Assembly: GCA_003480165.1 (NCBI GenBank)
Contig: QUIQ01000007.1
Coordinates: 1 to 64,000, forward strand
DNA from: Firmicutes bacterium AM41-11
Lineage (GTDB): Bacteria > Bacillota_I > Bacilli_A > Erysipelotrichales > Erysipelotrichaceae
Direction: 5' to 3'
Length of the DNA: 64,000 bases
A model generated the notes under the pieces. It had not been told where the DNA came from. It searched no databases and saw only the letters and a program-made list of their open reading frames with translations. A program made the translations under genes and the position numbers. This document shows positions 45,100 to 60,244 of the stretch, one piece after another (position 1 is the first letter of the stretch; each line of letters opens with the position of its first letter).

Positions 45100-45639
45100 A
45101 TGTATGATCAAATCGAAAGAGAATTAAAAATTCTCATCACAAAAGAAATTTATGAAAAAATGCGAAATTCCTATGAATTTTCCGATGCATGGGCACAAAC
45201 GAATACCTATTATGATACAAAAGATGGACAAATAAAAAAGCGCCATGGTGCTTTACGTATTCGTAAAATTGGGAATAAACATATTTTTACCTTAAAGATT
45301 CGCAGAGATGCGATTACCCATATTGAGCTAGAAAAGGAAATCAATGTCGATTCGATTCAAGCCATTACGGATAGTGAGATTTTAGCTTGGCTGAAAGAAT
45401 ATGAAATTCCGAAAGAAGTAGAAGCAATTGTTTCCTTTACAACTATTCGACAAACCTATGATTTAGAAAACGGACAGTTATGCCTGGATCAAACCGAATA
45501 TGAAAATCATATAGATTATGAATGTGAATATGAATATACAAAGGATCATGATGGTATCAAAGTATTTAATGAAATACTAAAACCTTATGGAATGACCTAT
45601 ACAAAAAACTGCCCCAGCAAGATTGCCAGAGCATTATAA
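45100..45639 (+). CDS. CYTH-domain (triphosphate tunnel) protein
   Basis: A 179-residue single CYTH domain. It starts with the ExExK motif (E6, E8, K10 in IERELKI), followed by YYDTKDGQIKKRHGALRIRKIG and YTLKIRR-like segment FTLKIRRDAITHIELEKEI, the basic and acidic strands lining the tunnel. Members bind triphosphates and divalent metal; known activities include tripolyphosphatase and thiamine triphosphatase. No partner CHAD domain. GAGGTAG ribosome site. Converges on the wHTH gene with a 6-base overlap. Confidence 0.88.
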   Translation: MYDQIERELKILITKEIYEKMRNSYEFSDAWAQTNTYYDTKDGQIKKRHGALRIRKIGNKHIFTLKIRRDAITHIELEKEINVDSIQAITDSEILAWLKEYEIPKEVEAIVSFTTIRQTYDLENGQLCLDQTEYENHIDYECEYEYTKDHDGIKVFNEILKPYGMTYTKNCPSKIARAL

Positions 45640-46362
45640 TTTGTGAAACATGCGATAGAAGAAGGATTTAGAATTATATTCTTCTTCTCTTTTTTTATAA
45701 TCTTCTAATTCCTGTTGCATCTGATCTGCAGCAGAAACTTTTTCTTTTAACACTTCATTTTCCGATTCTAAATCTGCTTTTTTATTCGATACTTCGGCTA
45801 ATTCCGTCTCTTTTTCGGAAAGTTGTGTGCTTTTCCTATCTAATTCCGATTTCTTTTCCGATAATTCCGCTTGCGATTTTTTGATTTCTTGATCTTTTGA
45901 TGCGATATCTTCGGATAACTGCGTAATTCTTAGGTCTTTCGAAGAAGATTCTTCCGTCAACATCTGAATTTTTTCATCCTTTGATTGATTCTCTAATAAG
46001 AATGTCTGATGCGCCTTTTCTAATTCAGAAGCCAAACGATCTTTATATAATTGTTCAATCTGTTTTTCCGTTTTCTCTTTTTCCTCAAGAATGGCTTTCA
46101 GTTTCTCATTTTCATACCGTAATTCAACTTCTACCGTAGAAATTTCATTCTTTTTTTTACGGAAATACTTCGATAATTTTTCTACACCTTCTGCCTTAAT
46201 CGTGATCCGTCGCGTCTCTGGATTCTTATATTTATAACCAGCATCTGGATAATCTTTGACAAGCTTAGCAACCGCTTTATCTACCGTATTTCGTGATTTA
46301 GAAAAATGCTGACAAATATCCGCAATCTCCATATCATAATAAACATCAACTGCTTCTTCCAT
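45634..46362 (-). CDS. Winged-helix / long coiled-coil protein with amphipathic tail
   Basis: About 242 residues. Residues 1-65 look like a winged-helix DNA-binding domain (MEIADICQHFSKSRNTVDKAV then YKYKNPETRRITIKAEGVEKL). A continuous coiled coil of about 150 residues follows, rich in Glu, Lys and Ser heptads. The C terminus is SKSFFYRMFHKL, amphipathic and basic, like membrane-targeting tails. The layout resembles plasmid DUF536 and KfrA-type proteins. I start at 46362 (AAGGGG eight bases upstream). The gene faces an array of TTCATAYGAA palindromes upstream. Role unknown; a DNA-binding, membrane-linked organiser is an inference. Confidence 0.65.
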   Translation of the reverse strand: MEEAVDVYYDMEIADICQHFSKSRNTVDKAVAKLVKDYPDAGYKYKNPETRRITIKAEGVEKLSKYFRKKKNEISTVEVELRYENEKLKAILEEKEKTEKQIEQLYKDRLASELEKAHQTFLLENQSKDEKIQMLTEESSSKDLRITQLSEDIASKDQEIKKSQAELSEKKSELDRKSTQLSEKETELAEVSNKKADLESENEVLKEKVSAADQMQQELEDYKKREEEYNSKSFFYRMFHKL

Positions 46363-46381
46363 ATTCCCAACCCCTTTTGTT

Positions 46382-46740
46382 TTCATATGAACCTACTTAT
46401 GATATTTCATATAGTCATATCATTTGCTGAACACGCACAAAATCTATTCCTATTCCATTCATACGAATGGCACTAGAACACTTTTATCATATTTATGTAA
46501 AATTATCAAGTCCCACTCTATTCATATGAATAAATATTTATGTGAATTTTTATTTATTAATTTCATATGAATTATATTATTGGTGATTTTTCAATTTTCT
46601 ATTCATATTTTATTCACATGAAAGAGAAGAAATTTAAAATTTGAAGAAAATGAAAAAATTTTAATTATTATATGAATAAATATGAATATCATATATGTAT
46701 TTCATATGGAAATAGGAATGAAATAATAAAATCATACGAA
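46382..46740. repeat. Array of TTCATAYGAA palindromes in an AT-rich intergenic region
   Basis: Exact TTCATATGAA occurs at 46382-46391, 46521-46530 and 46562-46571; TTCATACGAA at 46458-46467 (inside CCATTCATACGAATGG); one-mismatch forms at 46613-46622, 46701-46710 and 46731-46740. The region from 46363 to 46900 (about 540 bases) has no convincing gene. The sites lie upstream of the winged-helix gene and downstream of recR. Possible operator or centromere-like site. Confidence 0.75.
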
Positions 46741-46742
46741 TA

Positions 46743-46771
46743 AAAAAGATGGAGAAAATTTCTTTCTCCAT
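46743..46771 (-). terminator. Terminator downstream of recR
   Basis: Minus-strand stem ATGGAGAAA / TTTCTCCAT and a U-run, 130 bases past the recR stop at the edge of the palindrome region. Confidence 0.8.
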
Positions 46772-46900
46772 TTATAGGAAAATCAGATGATAGAAGAAAA
46801 ATAACTAAATAGTATATGATTTAGTATATGAAAACAGGAAATAAGGATAAATAAATGAAATTATTCGTCATTATTTCCTATCTCGTTCGTATGATTGGTC

Positions 46901-47485
46901 CTATTTACGTCCTTCAAAGGCTCTTAGTAGGGTTAAGGCATCGGTATAGTCTAAATGACCACCAATAGGAATACCATATGCCAATCGGGTAGTTTTAACC
47001 TTATCCTTTAAGATTTTTTCGAGATATAAAGAAGTTGTCTCACCTTCTACCGTAGGATCTAAAGCCAATATGACTTCCTCTATATCTTCTTTTTGTATAC
47101 GTTCTAATAGAGAAGCAATATTCAAAGAGTCTGGCAATATGCCTTTTTGCATATTAATCACACCATGTAAGACATGATATAAGCCATTGTATTCCTGAAT
47201 AGATTCAATGGCTGCAATATCTTTTGGACTTTGAACTACACAAATCATATGCGTATTCCTATTCAAATCCATACAATATTCACAATATTCTCCTTCACTC
47301 ATATTCCCACATTTCTTACAGTAATGAACGCCTTCTTTCATATGATTAATCGCATTTTGAAATTCTGTGAATTCTTCCTCATTCCATCCAAGTACAGTAT
47401 AAGCATATCTTTCTGCTGTCTTTTGACCTACACCAGGTAGCTTTCGGAATGCCTGAATTAAATCATTAAACTTTTTTGGATACAT
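46901..47485 (-). CDS. recR: Recombination protein RecR
   Basis: Works with RecF/RecO to load RecA on gaps. The 194-residue protein has the N-terminal helix-hairpin-helix (LPGVGQKTAERYA), a C4 zinc finger CKKCGNMSEGEYCEYC (about residues 57-72), the Toprim segment with ICVVQSPKDIAAIE, and EVILALDPTVEGETTSLYL. GAGAGGA ribosome site, one base after the dnaX stop. Confidence 0.97.
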   Translation of the reverse strand: MYPKKFNDLIQAFRKLPGVGQKTAERYAYTVLGWNEEEFTEFQNAINHMKEGVHYCKKCGNMSEGEYCEYCMDLNRNTHMICVVQSPKDIAAIESIQEYNGLYHVLHGVINMQKGILPDSLNIASLLERIQKEDIEEVILALDPTVEGETTSLYLEKILKDKVKTTRLAYGIPIGGHLDYTDALTLLRAFEGRK

Positions 47486-47486
47486 A

Positions 47487-49238
47487 TTAATCCTCTCTTA
47501 CTTCTACATTCGAGAATATGCTTTGAATTGGATTTTCTTCCTTCATCTGATCTGAATCATCCGCTTTCTTTTCACATACAATTTCTGCTGGATCAGGGAG
47601 AGTATGATTATTCATACGAACTTTAAAGTCTTGAATCACACGATTGCATTGTTCAACATCCATTGAAAAAACTTTCTTCTCTTTACCCAATAACTTCTCG
47701 GTAAAATTCTGAAATCCAATCGTATTTTCATATTCATTAATTTCTTTAGACGCTACATCACTTCTTGCAGCTACTAATAGATAAGTATCACCACTTGCAA
47801 TAATCTGCGTATGATTTAATAAATTTGCGGGACGCATATACGTTAGATCTGATGTGAATTGATTTATCTGTTCATACTTTTTATTATCATTAGCTCTTTC
47901 TTGTTTATTTGCTCCGACAAGAAGTTGTAACAAAAACATATCTTCTAATATGATTTTACTATCTTTGATTTCTGATTGTTTTGATGTTTCACGTGAAACA
48001 TCAGATGGTAAATCAGGGGCTTTTTCCCTTTGTTTATAGGAAATTGTATGGTTTTCGTCTGATTTTACCTGCTTTTCAGATGGAGAATCATAGGACTGTT
48101 CCGATTTTTCACTCGTTTTCATTTCAGATATTTCTTGTTTCACAGGCGACTTTTCTTCATATGATTGAGAAATCGTCTTTAATAATCCTGTTTCAATATA
48201 ATCTAATACATTTGAAGCATATTGGAACTTATTATACGTGTCCATTAAACTATCTAATACAGCTAATCTGAAATTCATAGGAGCTTCGACAAAGTATTTC
48301 TGAATCAATTCCTTTGTCGAATCATCCATTAATGTTGTAGTAGGGGAGTAATCATAAATCACACTATTCTTTAATATGGATATAAAATCTGAAGTAAAAC
48401 GAACAAGATCCATACCTTGGTCAGAGATATGTTGGAGCTCTGTCATAAGCTTCTCAATATCTTTATGATATAAGTTTGCGAATAACTGACCAATATCATC
48501 TAACGTTAAAACACCATATATTTTTCTTACATCCGCTATATGAATTTCCGATGAACAATAAGCTACACATTGATCAAGAATTGATAGGGCATCACGCATA
48601 CCTCCATCAGCTAAGGAAGCAATTAGGCCAATTGCCTCTGCATCAATCTGAATCTTTTCTTGTTCACATACAATAGATAAACGTTGCACAATATCTTTGG
48701 CAGATACTTTGCTGAAATCAAATCTCTGACAACGCGAAATAATAGTTGGTAATACTTTGTTAGGTTCGGTTGTCGCAAAAATAAATACGATGTGTTTAGG
48801 TGGTTCTTCAATTGTTTTTAGTAGGGCATTGAAGGCACTCTTTGTCATCATATGAACTTCATCAATAATATAAATTTTATATTGTCCTTGCATCGGTGCA
48901 TATTTCACTCGATCAATTAAATTACGAACTTCTTCAACCCCATTATTGGAAGCAGCATCGATTTCTATAATATCTGGATGACTGCCATTTAAAGCCATCT
49001 TACAGTTCTCACATTCTCCACATGGTTGATTATCTTCCGTACTCGTACAATTTAACATACGCGCAAAAATCTTTGCGATGGTTGTCTTGCCTGTTCCTCG
49101 AGGACCACAAAATAAATATGCATGTGCAACACGATCTTGTGCTTTCGCATTCTTCAAGGTTTGAATGATTGTTTCTTGTCCTACAACCTCATTAAATGTA
49201 GTAGGCCGATACTTTCTATATAACGCTTGATAAGCCAT
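47487..49238 (-). CDS. dnaX: DNA polymerase III subunit gamma/tau
   Basis: The clamp-loader ATPase, 583 residues. It has AYLFCGPRGTGKTTIAK (Walker A, about residues 40-56), a zinc module with CTSTEDNQPCGECENC, YIIDEVHMMTKSAFNALLKTIEEPP and ATTEPNKVLPTIISRCQ. The linker (residues 370-430) is charged and ends in a segment with VSRETSK, which encodes the parS sequence. The C-terminal part probably has tau-like contacts with PolC. Ribosome site AGGTG; extended -10 TGATATAAT at 49264-49272. In an operon with recR. Confidence 0.96.
   Translation of the reverse strand: MAYQALYRKYRPTTFNEVVGQETIIQTLKNAKAQDRVAHAYLFCGPRGTGKTTIAKIFARMLNCTSTEDNQPCGECENCKMALNGSHPDIIEIDAASNNGVEEVRNLIDRVKYAPMQGQYKIYIIDEVHMMTKSAFNALLKTIEEPPKHIVFIFATTEPNKVLPTIISRCQRFDFSKVSAKDIVQRLSIVCEQEKIQIDAEAIGLIASLADGGMRDALSILDQCVAYCSSEIHIADVRKIYGVLTLDDIGQLFANLYHKDIEKLMTELQHISDQGMDLVRFTSDFISILKNSVIYDYSPTTTLMDDSTKELIQKYFVEAPMNFRLAVLDSLMDTYNKFQYASNVLDYIETGLLKTISQSYEEKSPVKQEISEMKTSEKSEQSYDSPSEKQVKSDENHTISYKQREKAPDLPSDVSRETSKQSEIKDSKIILEDMFLLQLLVGANKQERANDNKKYEQINQFTSDLTYMRPANLLNHTQIIASGDTYLLVAARSDVASKEINEYENTIGFQNFTEKLLGKEKKVFSMDVEQCNRVIQDFKVRMNNHTLPDPAEIVCEKKADDSDQMKEENPIQSIFSNVEVRED
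47985..48000. promoter_or_regulatory. parS site (ParB binding) inside dnaX
   Basis: TGTTTCACGTGAAACA, the exact 16-bp palindrome known as parS in Bacillus. It is translated as part of Asp-Val-Ser-Arg-Glu-Thr in the DnaX linker. It lies about 12 kb from dnaA. parB itself is at 2.7 kb. No second copy was seen by eye in this window. Confidence 0.95.
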
Positions 49239-51516: not shown

Positions 51517-51605
51517 CCTATTTCCACGTTAATTTTACAAATCTTTTACCTATTTCATATGAAACTTTATTCTCTTTTTCCTATACTGAAAAAAAGGAGA
51601 ATCCT

Positions 51606-51786: not shown

Positions 51787-54256
51787 ATGCATTTTCTATA
51801 TTCTCTTCTTCAGGTTCTTCATGATCAACTAAAGTTAAACGCATAACTTTGGCATCATCTGTTAAGTTGATCAAACGAACCCCTTGGGTATTTCGTGAAT
51901 AAATTCCAATATCCGCAACCGAAATACGAATCATAATACCACTACTTGAAACAATCATCGCATCTTCATCCCCACGTACCGCTTTTACTAATTTAAGGGC
52001 ACCGGTCTTCTCAGTTACATTCATTGTCGCAACCCCTTTGGAACCACGAGAAGTTAAACGATAATCTTCTACCTTGCTACGTTTTCCATATCCATTTTCA
52101 GAAATAGATAATAAGGTATCTCCTTCATAATCCATAGCTGCACCAACAATACTTCCACCATCGGTATTCATACCACGTACACCACTAGCACTACGTCCCA
52201 TTTGACGAATATCCTTTTCATCAAAGCGGGCAACTTTACCATTGGAACAAGCCAACATTACTTGATCATGGCCACTAGTAGGTTTCACAAATAATAAGAT
52301 ATCGTCTTCTTTTAAACTAATCGCAATCTTACCATTTCGGTTGATCCGATCAAATTCCGATAATTGGGTACGTTTTACAACTCCATCTTTTGTGACAAAG
52401 AGCAGATTTTCATATGAATGATCCTGTGGAATACCTAATAAGGCCGTCACATGTTCATTTTCTTCCAATTGAATTAAATTCACAATTGGTAAACCTTTTG
52501 AAGTACGTGAACCACTTGGCACATTGTATCCCTTTAAACGATAGACCCGACCAAGATCCGTAAACAACATCAAATGATCATGGGTATTCAAAGAAATCAT
52601 CGTATCGATATCATCTTCCGCATTTAACGTCAGTGACTTGATACCACGACCACCACGATTTTGCGCATGGTAGGTATCAACTGGCATACGTTTGATATAA
52701 CCAGACATCGTCAACATGACAATCACATCTTCCTTTGGAATCAGATCTTCGTCTTCCATATTCACATAAGAATCCGTGATTTCGGTACGACGTTCATCCC
52801 CGTATTTCTCATTGATTTCCGTTAAATCATCACGAATGATTTGAAGAACACGACTGTGTTTTGACAAAATATCTTTATAGTCGGCAATCTTTAACAACAA
52901 GTCTTGGTATTCATTTTCGACTTTGTCGCGTTCCAAACCAGATAGACGACGCAACTGCATAGCTAAAATAGCACGTGCCTGAATTTCATCAAAACCAAAC
53001 TTTTCACATAACTCAGCATTTAGGCCAGCTTCATCCGAATGGGATTGACGAATCGTCTGAATCACTTCATCCAAACGGTCCAAGGCAATTCTAAATCCTT
53101 CTAAGATATGTGCACGATCTTCCGCTTTCTTTAAATCAAAACGGGTTTTTCTTTCTACAACTTCCACTTGGAAATCAATATAGTCATTAATAATATCTTT
53201 GATTGGCAATTGGCGTGGACGACCATTTTCCAAAGCCAGCATATTAATACCATAACTAGACTGCAAAGGTGTTAAACGGAACAATTGATTTAAGATGACA
53301 TCTTCTTGAACATCTTTTTTCAATTCCATCACAATACGAATACCTTCACGATTCGATTCATCATTCAAATAGGTAACCCCTTGAATGTCTTTTTCACGAA
53401 CCAGCGAAGCCATCTTCGTAATTAAGTTTGCCTTATTTACGCCAAAAGGAATTTCATAGAAAATAATCTGTTTCTTTCCATTTGACAATTCTTCAATACG
53501 GTATTTAGAACGAATATAAATCGTACCACGACCCGTTTCATAAGCCTGGCGAATTCCTTTACGGCCCAAAATAATACCACCAGTAGGAAAGTCTGGTCCC
53601 TTTAGATGATTCATCAATTCAGGTACCGAGATATCTGGATCATCCATGACCGCAAAAATGGCATCAATCGTTTCACCTAAGTTATGCGTTGGCATATTGG
53701 TTGCCATACCAACCGCAATACCCATCGAACCATTGACAAGAATATTCGGAAAACGACTCGGTAAAACCAAAGGTTCGGTTTCTTCTCCATCGTAGTTTTC
53801 AACAAAATCAACCGTATTTTTATTAATATCACGAACCATTTCCATGGCAATTTTAGACATACGCGCTTCGGTATAACGCATGGCAGCAGCACCATCGCCA
53901 TCCAAACTACCAAAGTTTCCATGACCATCTACAAGCGGATAACGATAAGAGAAATCTTGAGCCATACGAACCATGGCATCATAAACCGCCGTATCTCCAT
54001 GTGGGTGATACTTACCAATAACTTCACCGACAATACGCGCACTCTTCTTATGGGCTACCCCAGAAGACATACCTAATTGATTCATCGCATGTAAAATACG
54101 TCGATGTACTGGTTTCATACCATCACGAACATCAGGAAGGGCACGCTGTACAATAACCGACATGGAATAATCTAGAAAGTCTTCACGGACCTCACGCGAA
54201 ATCTCGACTTCTTCGACTACATCATATTGTTCTTCTGGATTGTTGTTTTCTGACAT
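51785..54256 (-). CDS. gyrA: DNA gyrase subunit A
   Basis: The DNA-cleaving gyrase subunit, 823 residues. The winged-helix core has [41 protein letters not shown] (the quinolone-pocket positions are Thr and Asp) and [13 protein letters not shown] with the catalytic Tyr. Six-blade C-terminal domain starts near 500, with the GyrA-box [10 protein letters not shown]. Natural Thr at the Ser83-equivalent position; not evidence of resistance. Ten bases after gyrB. Confidence 0.98.
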
Positions 54257-58888: not shown

Positions 58889-60244
58889 CTATTCCAGTCC
58901 TTCTTTAATTTGGTTCATAGCCAGGGCAAACGCTTTATCCGTCTTTAAGAGTTTAACCGCGCGCTCATAGCTGGATTTAATCGTAGAATGATCTCTTTTT
59001 CCTAATTCATAGCCAATCTGCGTCCAAGATGTATCTGATAATTCATGGGATAAATAGACAATCATATGTCGCGCTGTCGTTAATTTACGCTGCCGGGCAT
59101 GGCCTTCGACATCTTTATACGATAAACCATAATAGACCGTAACCGCCTTTTTTATATCTTTTACCGATAAATGATCCGATGGCGTAGAAAGAATAATCGT
59201 ATCTGATAAGACTTTTTGGGCAAATTCGAGATCAATCACATCCGGATTTTCAAGTGTCGCATTAAAAATCAAACGATTTAAATTGCCTTCCAGACTTCTT
59301 ACATCATCTGAAAATTTATGGGCTAAAAAGTCAACAACTTCATCACTGATTGGACAGGTTTCTTCATAGCCTTCCAGCTTTTTACGCAAAATAGCTCGAC
59401 TGGTATCAAATTCAGGTCGCTGAATATTTACCACCAAGCCTTTGGTGAAACGCGAAACTAAACGATCTTGAATACCCGTTAATTGGCTAGGATGCATGTC
59501 ACTGGTGATAATGATCTGCGCTCCTTTAGATATTAAGGAATTATATACTTTAAAGAAGACTTCCTGGCTGCTTGATTGCGTTAAGTTTTGGATATCATCA
59601 ATCAAGAAATAATCGTTATCAATGAGTTGAGCCTGCACTTGTTCAACCGTATTTCCATGGACGTTTTTGGTCTTCATAGCATCCAGTAAGATAGAAACTA
59701 AATCTCCACTATAGGAATAAAAGACCTTGAGTTCTGGCCGTTCAGTTTGTAGATAGTTTCCGATGGCATGGAGTAAGTGGGTTTTACCTAAACCAGAATT
59801 TCCATAAATCATAATCGGATTAAAGTAATGTTTACTTTGGGTACAACTAGCCAAACAAGCCGCATATGCTTCTTGGTTCGATTTTCCTTCGACAAAGTTT
59901 TCAAAAGTATAATCGGGATTAAATTCCGCTTTTAATAGTTCAACCGTTCGTTGTTGCACGATTTCTTCCGGCATTAACTTCTGCATTTCTCTAAATTCCA
60001 TGAATTGAATGGATACCGGTTCACCCCAAACGAAGTTCAAAGTTTCTTCAAAAAGCTGCTTTTCTTTACTGATTAAAGAAAAAGTGATTTTGGAACGGTA
60101 GGAAACGTACGCAATTTGATTTTCAATCTTGAAAAGATTGGTTTTGCGAATCCAGTTTTTAAAAGTATCTTCTGAAAAGTACTGGGATTCTTCAATTTTA
60201 TCTAAGACTTCTTTCCAGATTGTATCAAAATCAAATGTTGCCAT
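58889..60244 (-). CDS. dnaA: Chromosomal replication initiator protein DnaA
   Basis: A 451-residue initiator. Domain I (about 1-85), a short linker, the AAA+ domain with YGNSGLGKTHLLHAIGN (148-155 for the P-loop core) and FLIDDIQNLTQ, and domain IV. In domain IV the minor-groove Arg is kept (HARQR) and RDHSTIKSS takes the place of the usual RDHTTVLHA; L422/P423 of E. coli correspond to Trp/Thr here (SWTQIG). These are base-contact positions, and the local boxes also differ from TTATCCACA. -10 TATAAT at 60274-60279; CGGAGG ribosome site. Confidence 0.98.
   Translation of the reverse strand: MATFDFDTIWKEVLDKIEESQYFSEDTFKNWIRKTNLFKIENQIAYVSYRSKITFSLISKEKQLFEETLNFVWGEPVSIQFMEFREMQKLMPEEIVQQRTVELLKAEFNPDYTFENFVEGKSNQEAYAACLASCTQSKHYFNPIMIYGNSGLGKTHLLHAIGNYLQTERPELKVFYSYSGDLVSILLDAMKTKNVHGNTVEQVQAQLIDNDYFLIDDIQNLTQSSSQEVFFKVYNSLISKGAQIIITSDMHPSQLTGIQDRLVSRFTKGLVVNIQRPEFDTSRAILRKKLEGYEETCPISDEVVDFLAHKFSDDVRSLEGNLNRLIFNATLENPDVIDLEFAQKVLSDTIILSTPSDHLSVKDIKKAVTVYYGLSYKDVEGHARQRKLTTARHMIVYLSHELSDTSWTQIGYELGKRDHSTIKSSYERAVKLLKTDKAFALAMNQIKEGLE

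Follow-up and report, generated by a model that had tools for sequence, protein, structure and literature searches.

A predicted DNA tether and its helically phased palindrome array near the replication origin of a Noc-lacking clade of Erysipelotrichaceae

Which task is performed by a protein with a DNA-binding-type head and a long coiled coil, if its gene faces a dense array of short palindromes close to a bacterial replication origin? This question is raised by a 64,000-nucleotide stretch of Firmicutes bacterium AM41-11 (Erysipelotrichaceae; contig QUIQ01000007.1, positions 1 to 64,000), which is called the window below. Its initial annotation had proposed a candidate membrane-linked, DNA-organising system, and a comparison with relatives supports this proposal: the array has its centre at the gene, shows helical phasing and is kept across genera, it is associated with the presence of the gene and absent near recR in genomes without it, and no full-length Noc was found in carriers of the gene. 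We consider it probable that the encoded protein, here referred to as the tether protein, is a dimeric single-protein anchor which marks the origin/parS region and probably holds it at the membrane; its binding to the sites, the attachment of its tail to the membrane and its cellular role are what we infer from these comparisons.

The gene and a neighbouring element are located as follows:

45634..46362, minus strand: tether gene, 242 amino acids from Met9, start placed by the family alignment and the Shine-Dalgarno-like AAAAGGGG
46749..46771, minus strand: terminator-like hairpin, 3' of recR

The gene that had been predicted from 45634 onward is present, but its start has to be shifted from 46386 to 46362, because both the alignment of homologues and AAAAGGGG point to Met9; the longer open reading frame (ORF; 45634-46386, minus strand, 250 amino acids) would begin within a palindrome. 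In the numbering of this longer frame, the protein consists of a winged-helix head (residues 14-80, approximately), a long helix (84-248) and the tail SFFYRMFHKL, the C-terminal sequence being EYNSKSFFYRMFHKL. The tail is near-invariant, basic and aromatic, opens with YN[SGNT][KR] in 59 of the 61 family rows and is predicted to be amphipathic (hydrophobic moment of 0.55 over the last 11 residues), and the length of the coiled coil varies within the family. By fold, the head shares the MerR-like winged helix of RocS and pSK1 Par, and it may be of the RacA type. Up to an E-value of 1, Pfam gave no match to KfrA, DUF536 or ParB; an NCBIfam scan up to the same value listed 16 families, mostly coiled-coil proteins, and ParB/Noc was not among them. 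The hairpin would set the upstream region of the tether gene apart from recR. The possibility of a phage or plasmid relic was considered and is unlikely: no match was found in plasmid and phage collections, and the gene adjoins recR in 23 of the 24 loci of relatives (the 24th contig ends before recR). One partial relative occurs on a short IMG/VR contig.

At least seven copies or near copies of TTCATAYGAA had been noted in the gap between the tether gene and recR, together with the estimate that such a 10-mer should occur well under once per 64 kb. Both statements hold. Between 46382 and 46895, the gap contains three exact TTCATATGAA, one TTCATACGAA and four copies with one mismatch, and TTCATATGAA is found five times in the window, compared to an expectation of 0.23 (0 of 100 shuffles reach 5). 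The sites of the window are:

46382..46391: exact TTCATATGAA; the true tether start is about 20 bp downstream
46458..46467: TTCATACGAA, near-palindrome in the tether-recR gap
46521..46530: exact TTCATATGAA, overlapping a promoter-like -35 hexamer (TTCATA-17-GATAAT)
46562..46571: exact TTCATATGAA, 41 bp from the preceding site
46613..46622: TTCACATGAA, one mismatch
46701..46710: TTCATATGGA, one mismatch
46731..46740: ATCATACGAA, one mismatch
46886..46895, minus strand: ATCATACGAA, one mismatch
47337..47346: TCATATGA core within recR
47611..47620: TTCATACGAA within dnaX
48156..48165: TCATATGA core within dnaX, 165 bp from parS
48847..48856: TCATATGA core within dnaX
51554..51563: exact TTCATATGAA in the serS-gyrA gap
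52409..52418: exact TTCATATGAA within gyrA

The sites thus extend beyond the upstream gap into recR, dnaX, the serS-gyrA gap and gyrA. The part conserved across genera is the 8-mer TCATATGA, whose neighbouring bases are mostly A/T; it occurs nine times in the window (2.1 expected), and TTCATAYGAA with at most one mismatch gives 47 matches on both strands (21.3 expected). Neither count was reached in any of 100 shuffles.

In relatives, the array is centred on the tether gene. Approximately 0.8 kb of upstream DNA from each of 25 loci (20.1 kb in total) contains 82 copies of TCATATGA, where the density elsewhere in these loci would give 5.8, and 23 loci have at least one copy. Relative to the genomic rate, which was taken from 13 genomes counted in full (with rounded sizes in some cases), TCATATGA is enriched 90-fold at 0-1 kb from the gene (54 sites), 35-fold at 1-3 kb (42), 10.5-fold at 3-10 kb (44), 4.4-fold at 10-20 kb (23), 2.9-fold at 20-50 kb (31) and 1.8-fold at 50-100 kb (16), and drops to 0.5-fold at 100-200 kb (4); note that the stretches are unequal: they comprise ±200 kb in three genomes, and in two others one side exceeds 100 kb. 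Exact 10-mers are scarce genome-wide, with 2-17 copies in each of 13 genomes. Among all 8-mers, TCATATGA ranks first for local enrichment in 14 loci (172 versus 8, runs of N aside), a ranking whose far DNA stems mainly from few genomes and for which the per-genome rates are the better control. A further palindrome, TTGATCAA, is also locally raised (63 versus 14 expected at up to 20 kb from the gene in 14 loci), which could be due to base composition. The array goes along with the gene: the recR region of 23 carrier loci (7-10 kb each; L021, whose stretch lacks recR, was left out) contains 177 TCATATGA, where 10.0 are expected, whereas 30 loci of order members without the gene (3.6 kb each) contain 7, with 5.6 expected. 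In five additional non-carriers of the family, the corresponding 5 stretches contain 2 sites.

The upstream sites are regularly arranged. Their spacings cluster near 31, 42, 53, 63, 73, 84, 94, 104, 115, 125 and 136 bp, and a scan from 6 to 16 bp over 42 adjacent spacings of 17 representatives gave a best period of 10.5 bp (R of 0.79), a value never reached in 20,000 sets of spacings drawn uniformly at random. The spacings are partly non-independent, as related genomes share some of them, yet the spacing classes are many. Being spaced in multiples of 10.5 bp, the upstream sites share one face of the helix.

Could the array be a plain operator? In this case, the tether protein would be an autorepressor, its upstream sites would regulate its own gene, and distant sites would hitch-hike or regulate neighbours. 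Site density is indeed highest directly upstream of the gene, and TCATAGGA, which is one base off the core, overlaps the Shine-Dalgarno or ribosome-binding region in 10 of 20 loci of relatives, which suggests autoregulation at the ribosome-binding site or the promoter. Some promoter-like -35 hexamers also overlap palindromes, although matches such as TTCATA-17-GATAAT do not exceed their frequency in shuffles. Sites in neighbouring genes, however, are not required by an operator. With genes set by homology to those of the window, orthologous sites counted once per genome and the tether gene excluded, 89 in-gene TCATATGA were found, compared to 40.9 +/- 4.6 in 300 synonymous shuffles (maximum 56); shuffling mechanically defined ORFs gave a wider excess, and the homology-defined genes were relied on instead. 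The excess is clear in dnaX (42 versus 17.5; 21 loci) and in the CYTH gene (20 versus 7.3; 17 loci), where none of the 300 shuffles reaches the observed count. It is weaker in gyrA (6 versus 2.7; reached by 2 of 300), not significant by the same test in recR (6 versus 4.2), serS, ppnK, mutS and mutL, and tadA, gyrB and ftsW contain no site; that only two neighbours show a clear excess fits the operator. Intergenic sites, which an operator does not need at a distance either, are still frequent at 3-10 kb: with intergenic DNA delimited by mechanical ORFs, the distance classes of 0-3, 3-10, 10-20, 20-50 and 50-200 kb contain 59, 21, 2, 5 and 5 sites in 14.2, 17.4, 31, 69 and 178 kb, respectively. 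Moreover, 19 of 23 carrier loci have 5-13 sites within 5 kb, and the protein possesses a long rod and a near-invariant tail. A plain operator is therefore a rather improbable explanation. Autorepression as one activity of an anchor is a different matter: sites near the start codon make it likely that the tether protein represses the gene which encodes it.

The window belongs to the chromosome. By NCBIfam, its genes include recR, dnaX, serS, gyrA, gyrB, recF, dnaN, dnaA, rnpA, yidC and a rodA/ftsW-like gene, and mutL, mutS, NAD kinase (ppnK), the CYTH-like gene and tadA were assigned from reading the ORFs. Two elements define the position of the array:

47985..48000: parS, exact match to the consensus TGTTTCACGTGAAACA, within dnaX
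58889..60244, minus strand: dnaA

With dnaA at this position, the array is situated in the replication-origin region, and the distance between tether gene and dnaA is 13.9-19.0 kb in those 12 loci, out of 14, whose contigs reach dnaA. In 14 of 14 loci, the 14-bp parS core is situated 1.4-2.8 kb upstream of the tether gene. Three genomes were covered over 400 kb each around the gene and showed no second exact parS; in the carrier clade, parS thus seems reduced to about one near-origin site. In 15 of 20 loci, parS has at least one TCATATGA at a distance of up to 190 bp, with varying offsets, which suggests a turnover of sites rather than simple inheritance. This proximity, and the TTC....GAA frame which TTCATATGAA shares with parS (TTCACGTGAA), differing only in the core, would fit palindromes bound by ParB or a ParB-like protein instead of the tether protein. 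Yet an array near recR is missing in non-carriers, which do possess ParB and Noc, and the density maximum is at the upstream region of the tether gene and not at parS; as the ordinary parS core is kept in 14 of 14 carrier loci, the specificity of ParB looks unchanged. We regard binding by ParB as very improbable.

Among the genomes surveyed, the tether family is confined to one clade of Erysipelotrichaceae. Surveys of the order and of the family gave 20 carriers among 294 genomes and 23 among 272, respectively, and a phylum sample of 392 genomes contained two with the gene, both already among the carriers. In a RecR tree of 59 rows, the 24 carriers form one clade (100/99), and the named rows nearest to the window are Catenisphaera adipataccumulans and Absicoccus porci; G023, in this sample the sister of the carrier clade, possesses Noc and is devoid of an array near recR. 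Faecalicoccus pleomorphus and Holdemanella biformis are among the culturable carriers. The tether gene is also present in L018, a metagenome assembly under the title Erysipelothrix rhusiopathiae, which lies inside the carrier clade in the RecR tree; its species label may be wrong. None of 23 carriers, but 71 of 74 non-carriers, gave a Noc-model match that extends to the model end (255); Noc was called here by length, score and pairing with ParB, and the curated cut-off of the model is passed by fewer. The non-carriers lacking it are G245, which also lacks a recR match, G054, with no match, and G055, which has recR and ParB; in the carrier G268 neither ParB nor Noc was matched. In 9 of 9 carrier loci that were read, a soj-like gene and parB come immediately after a gidB-like gene, and noc does not occur in between; for G008, profile models confirm gidB and parB and give ParA-family matches below cut-offs for soj, and in the other loci these genes were identified by eye. 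The frame of the tether gene is broken in the assembly of the carrier G003, whose gidB and parB frames are fragmented; at locus L023 (10001-10676; Allobaculum sp. Allo2), in a record titled a complete genome, the tether gene is split across frames with stops, and since parB and gidB of that genome also look fragmented, sequencing errors are possible. As the carriers are monophyletic, gain of the tether gene and loss of noc map to one branch, a suggestive coincidence, albeit of one event only.

Is the tether protein then a true Noc analogue, which brings DNA from many chromosomal sites to the membrane and in this way prevents division over the nucleoid? Full-length Noc is missing where the tether gene is present, and the combination of a DNA-binding part with a membrane-type helix agrees with this idea. 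Noc couples DNA to the membrane via an amphipathic helix, and its sites are spread over the chromosome. Those of the tether protein, in contrast, are confined to the origin region, the enrichment fading beyond 50-100 kb (far DNA comes from few genomes); at 50-200 kb, 7 in-gene sites were counted where 12.4 are expected, in line with the 0.5-fold rate at 100-200 kb. This distribution makes occlusion over the whole nucleoid less likely than anchoring or positioning of the origin, and we consider a true Noc analogue unlikely. The initial annotation was right in placing the protein in neither Noc nor KfrA, in agreement with Pfam and NCBIfam, and the design which it proposed is supported; the system is less Noc-like than proposed, however, since the sites are enriched around the gene, parS and origin and not genome-wide, which brings it closer to origin anchors such as RacA, RocS and pSK1 Par.

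The tether protein was also compared with known systems. From Noc (TIGR04285), whose absence coincides with its presence, the tether protein differs by lacking a ParB/Noc domain and by the C-terminal position of its membrane-type helix. KfrA of plasmids has a DNA-binding head and a long coiled coil and regulates its own gene; the tether protein shares the design, and probably the autoregulation, but is chromosomal, has its locus fixed beside recR in relatives, has a conserved tail and gives no Pfam KfrA match (distant kinship is possible). Its head, for which a comparison with DUF536 and KfrA had been proposed, matches neither in Pfam and fits the structure of pSK1 Par with its centromere (8csh) with 1.6 Å over 53 residues. 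Par of this staphylococcal plasmid has repeats upstream of its own gene; the tether gene, however, is chromosomal and beside the origin, its sites reach neighbouring genes over several kb, and DUF536 is missing. RacA of Bacillus subtilis serves sporulation, in which it anchors at the cell pole in a DivIVA-dependent manner, and its sites, which lie around the origin, are GC-rich and unlike the tether palindromes. The DNA-binding domain of RacA is the first-ranked Foldseek hit (probability 1.00, E-value 0.068, TM-scores 0.51/0.66), and no sequence match between RacA and the tether protein was found, a search of the PDB included. RacA is described as a protein that binds centromere-like repeats and serves as an anchor of the chromosome (PMC11500499). 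RocS of Streptococcus pneumoniae is a partner of ParB and consists of an N-terminal MerR-like winged helix, a coiled coil and a short C-terminal MinD-type membrane helix, according to two articles (PMC11500499, PMC13042908); its tail is reported to bind the membrane only when paired, and it acts in a genome without ParA (PMC11500499). The tether protein has the same succession of winged-helix head and coiled coil, and its C-terminal tail may be a membrane-binding helix. It differs in that the DUF536 module (PF04394) was found in 0 of 40 genomes, 22 carriers included, with a positive Lactococcus control, in that a soj/ParA-like gene precedes parB in 9 carrier loci, and in the palindrome array around its gene, for which no counterpart was found in the passages considered on RocS. 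The best reading is that the tether protein works like RocS, RacA or Noc and belongs to none of them. Among the papers listed by literature searches on the motif (10 of 129 matches), on Noc phylogeny and loss, on RacA and on Erysipelotrichaceae ParB/parS, there was no earlier description of the system, and a search pairing Erysipelotrich with nucleoid occlusion gave no paper in the library searched.

An origin anchor could operate as follows. The winged-helix head would bind TCATATGA, with its mostly A/T flanks, as a dimer. Bound sites would be densest just upstream of the gene, frequent within approximately 3 kb (dnaX, CYTH, around parS) and thin out over about 10 kb on each side. Whole-turn spacing upstream would place the dimers on one face of the DNA, with the rods side by side via their coiled coils, and the basic aromatic tails may attach this comb to the membrane or a membrane protein at many points. 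If tails bind the membrane only when paired, as reported for RocS (PMC11500499), dimers would anchor the origin region, and the origin/parS domain would be held or positioned next to ParB. Upon loss of noc in the ancestor of the clade, the tether protein may have taken over at least part of the role of Noc. This reading has weak points: in-gene conservation is clear for two neighbours only, and in an Allobaculum-type subclade the array is thinned, L004, L005, L008 and L023 having 1, 2, 5 and 4 sites within 5 kb. L004 and L005 have no TCATATGA within 1 kb upstream of the gene although their tether protein is conserved, which points to a secondary thinning of the array in this subclade. The more specific proposal of a chromosomal, centromere-like comb near oriC/parS, in which one protein and a phased, one-sided array displaced Noc throughout the clade and form a membrane tether without an NTPase of its own, is possible but put forward tentatively; the papers retrieved by the literature searches contain no description of such a design for a chromosome.

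These findings name a likely replacement of Noc and its candidate sites, in a clade of gut bacteria that carries an apparently undescribed tether family. They suggest that Noc, part of the usual chromosome-division kit of Firmicutes, can be lost and replaced, and they support single-protein tethers of the RocS, RacA or Par kind as a recurrent solution. The 10.5-bp phasing leads to a physical prediction, namely that the rods project from one side of the DNA, and the system opens chromosome segregation to study in Erysipelotrichaceae.
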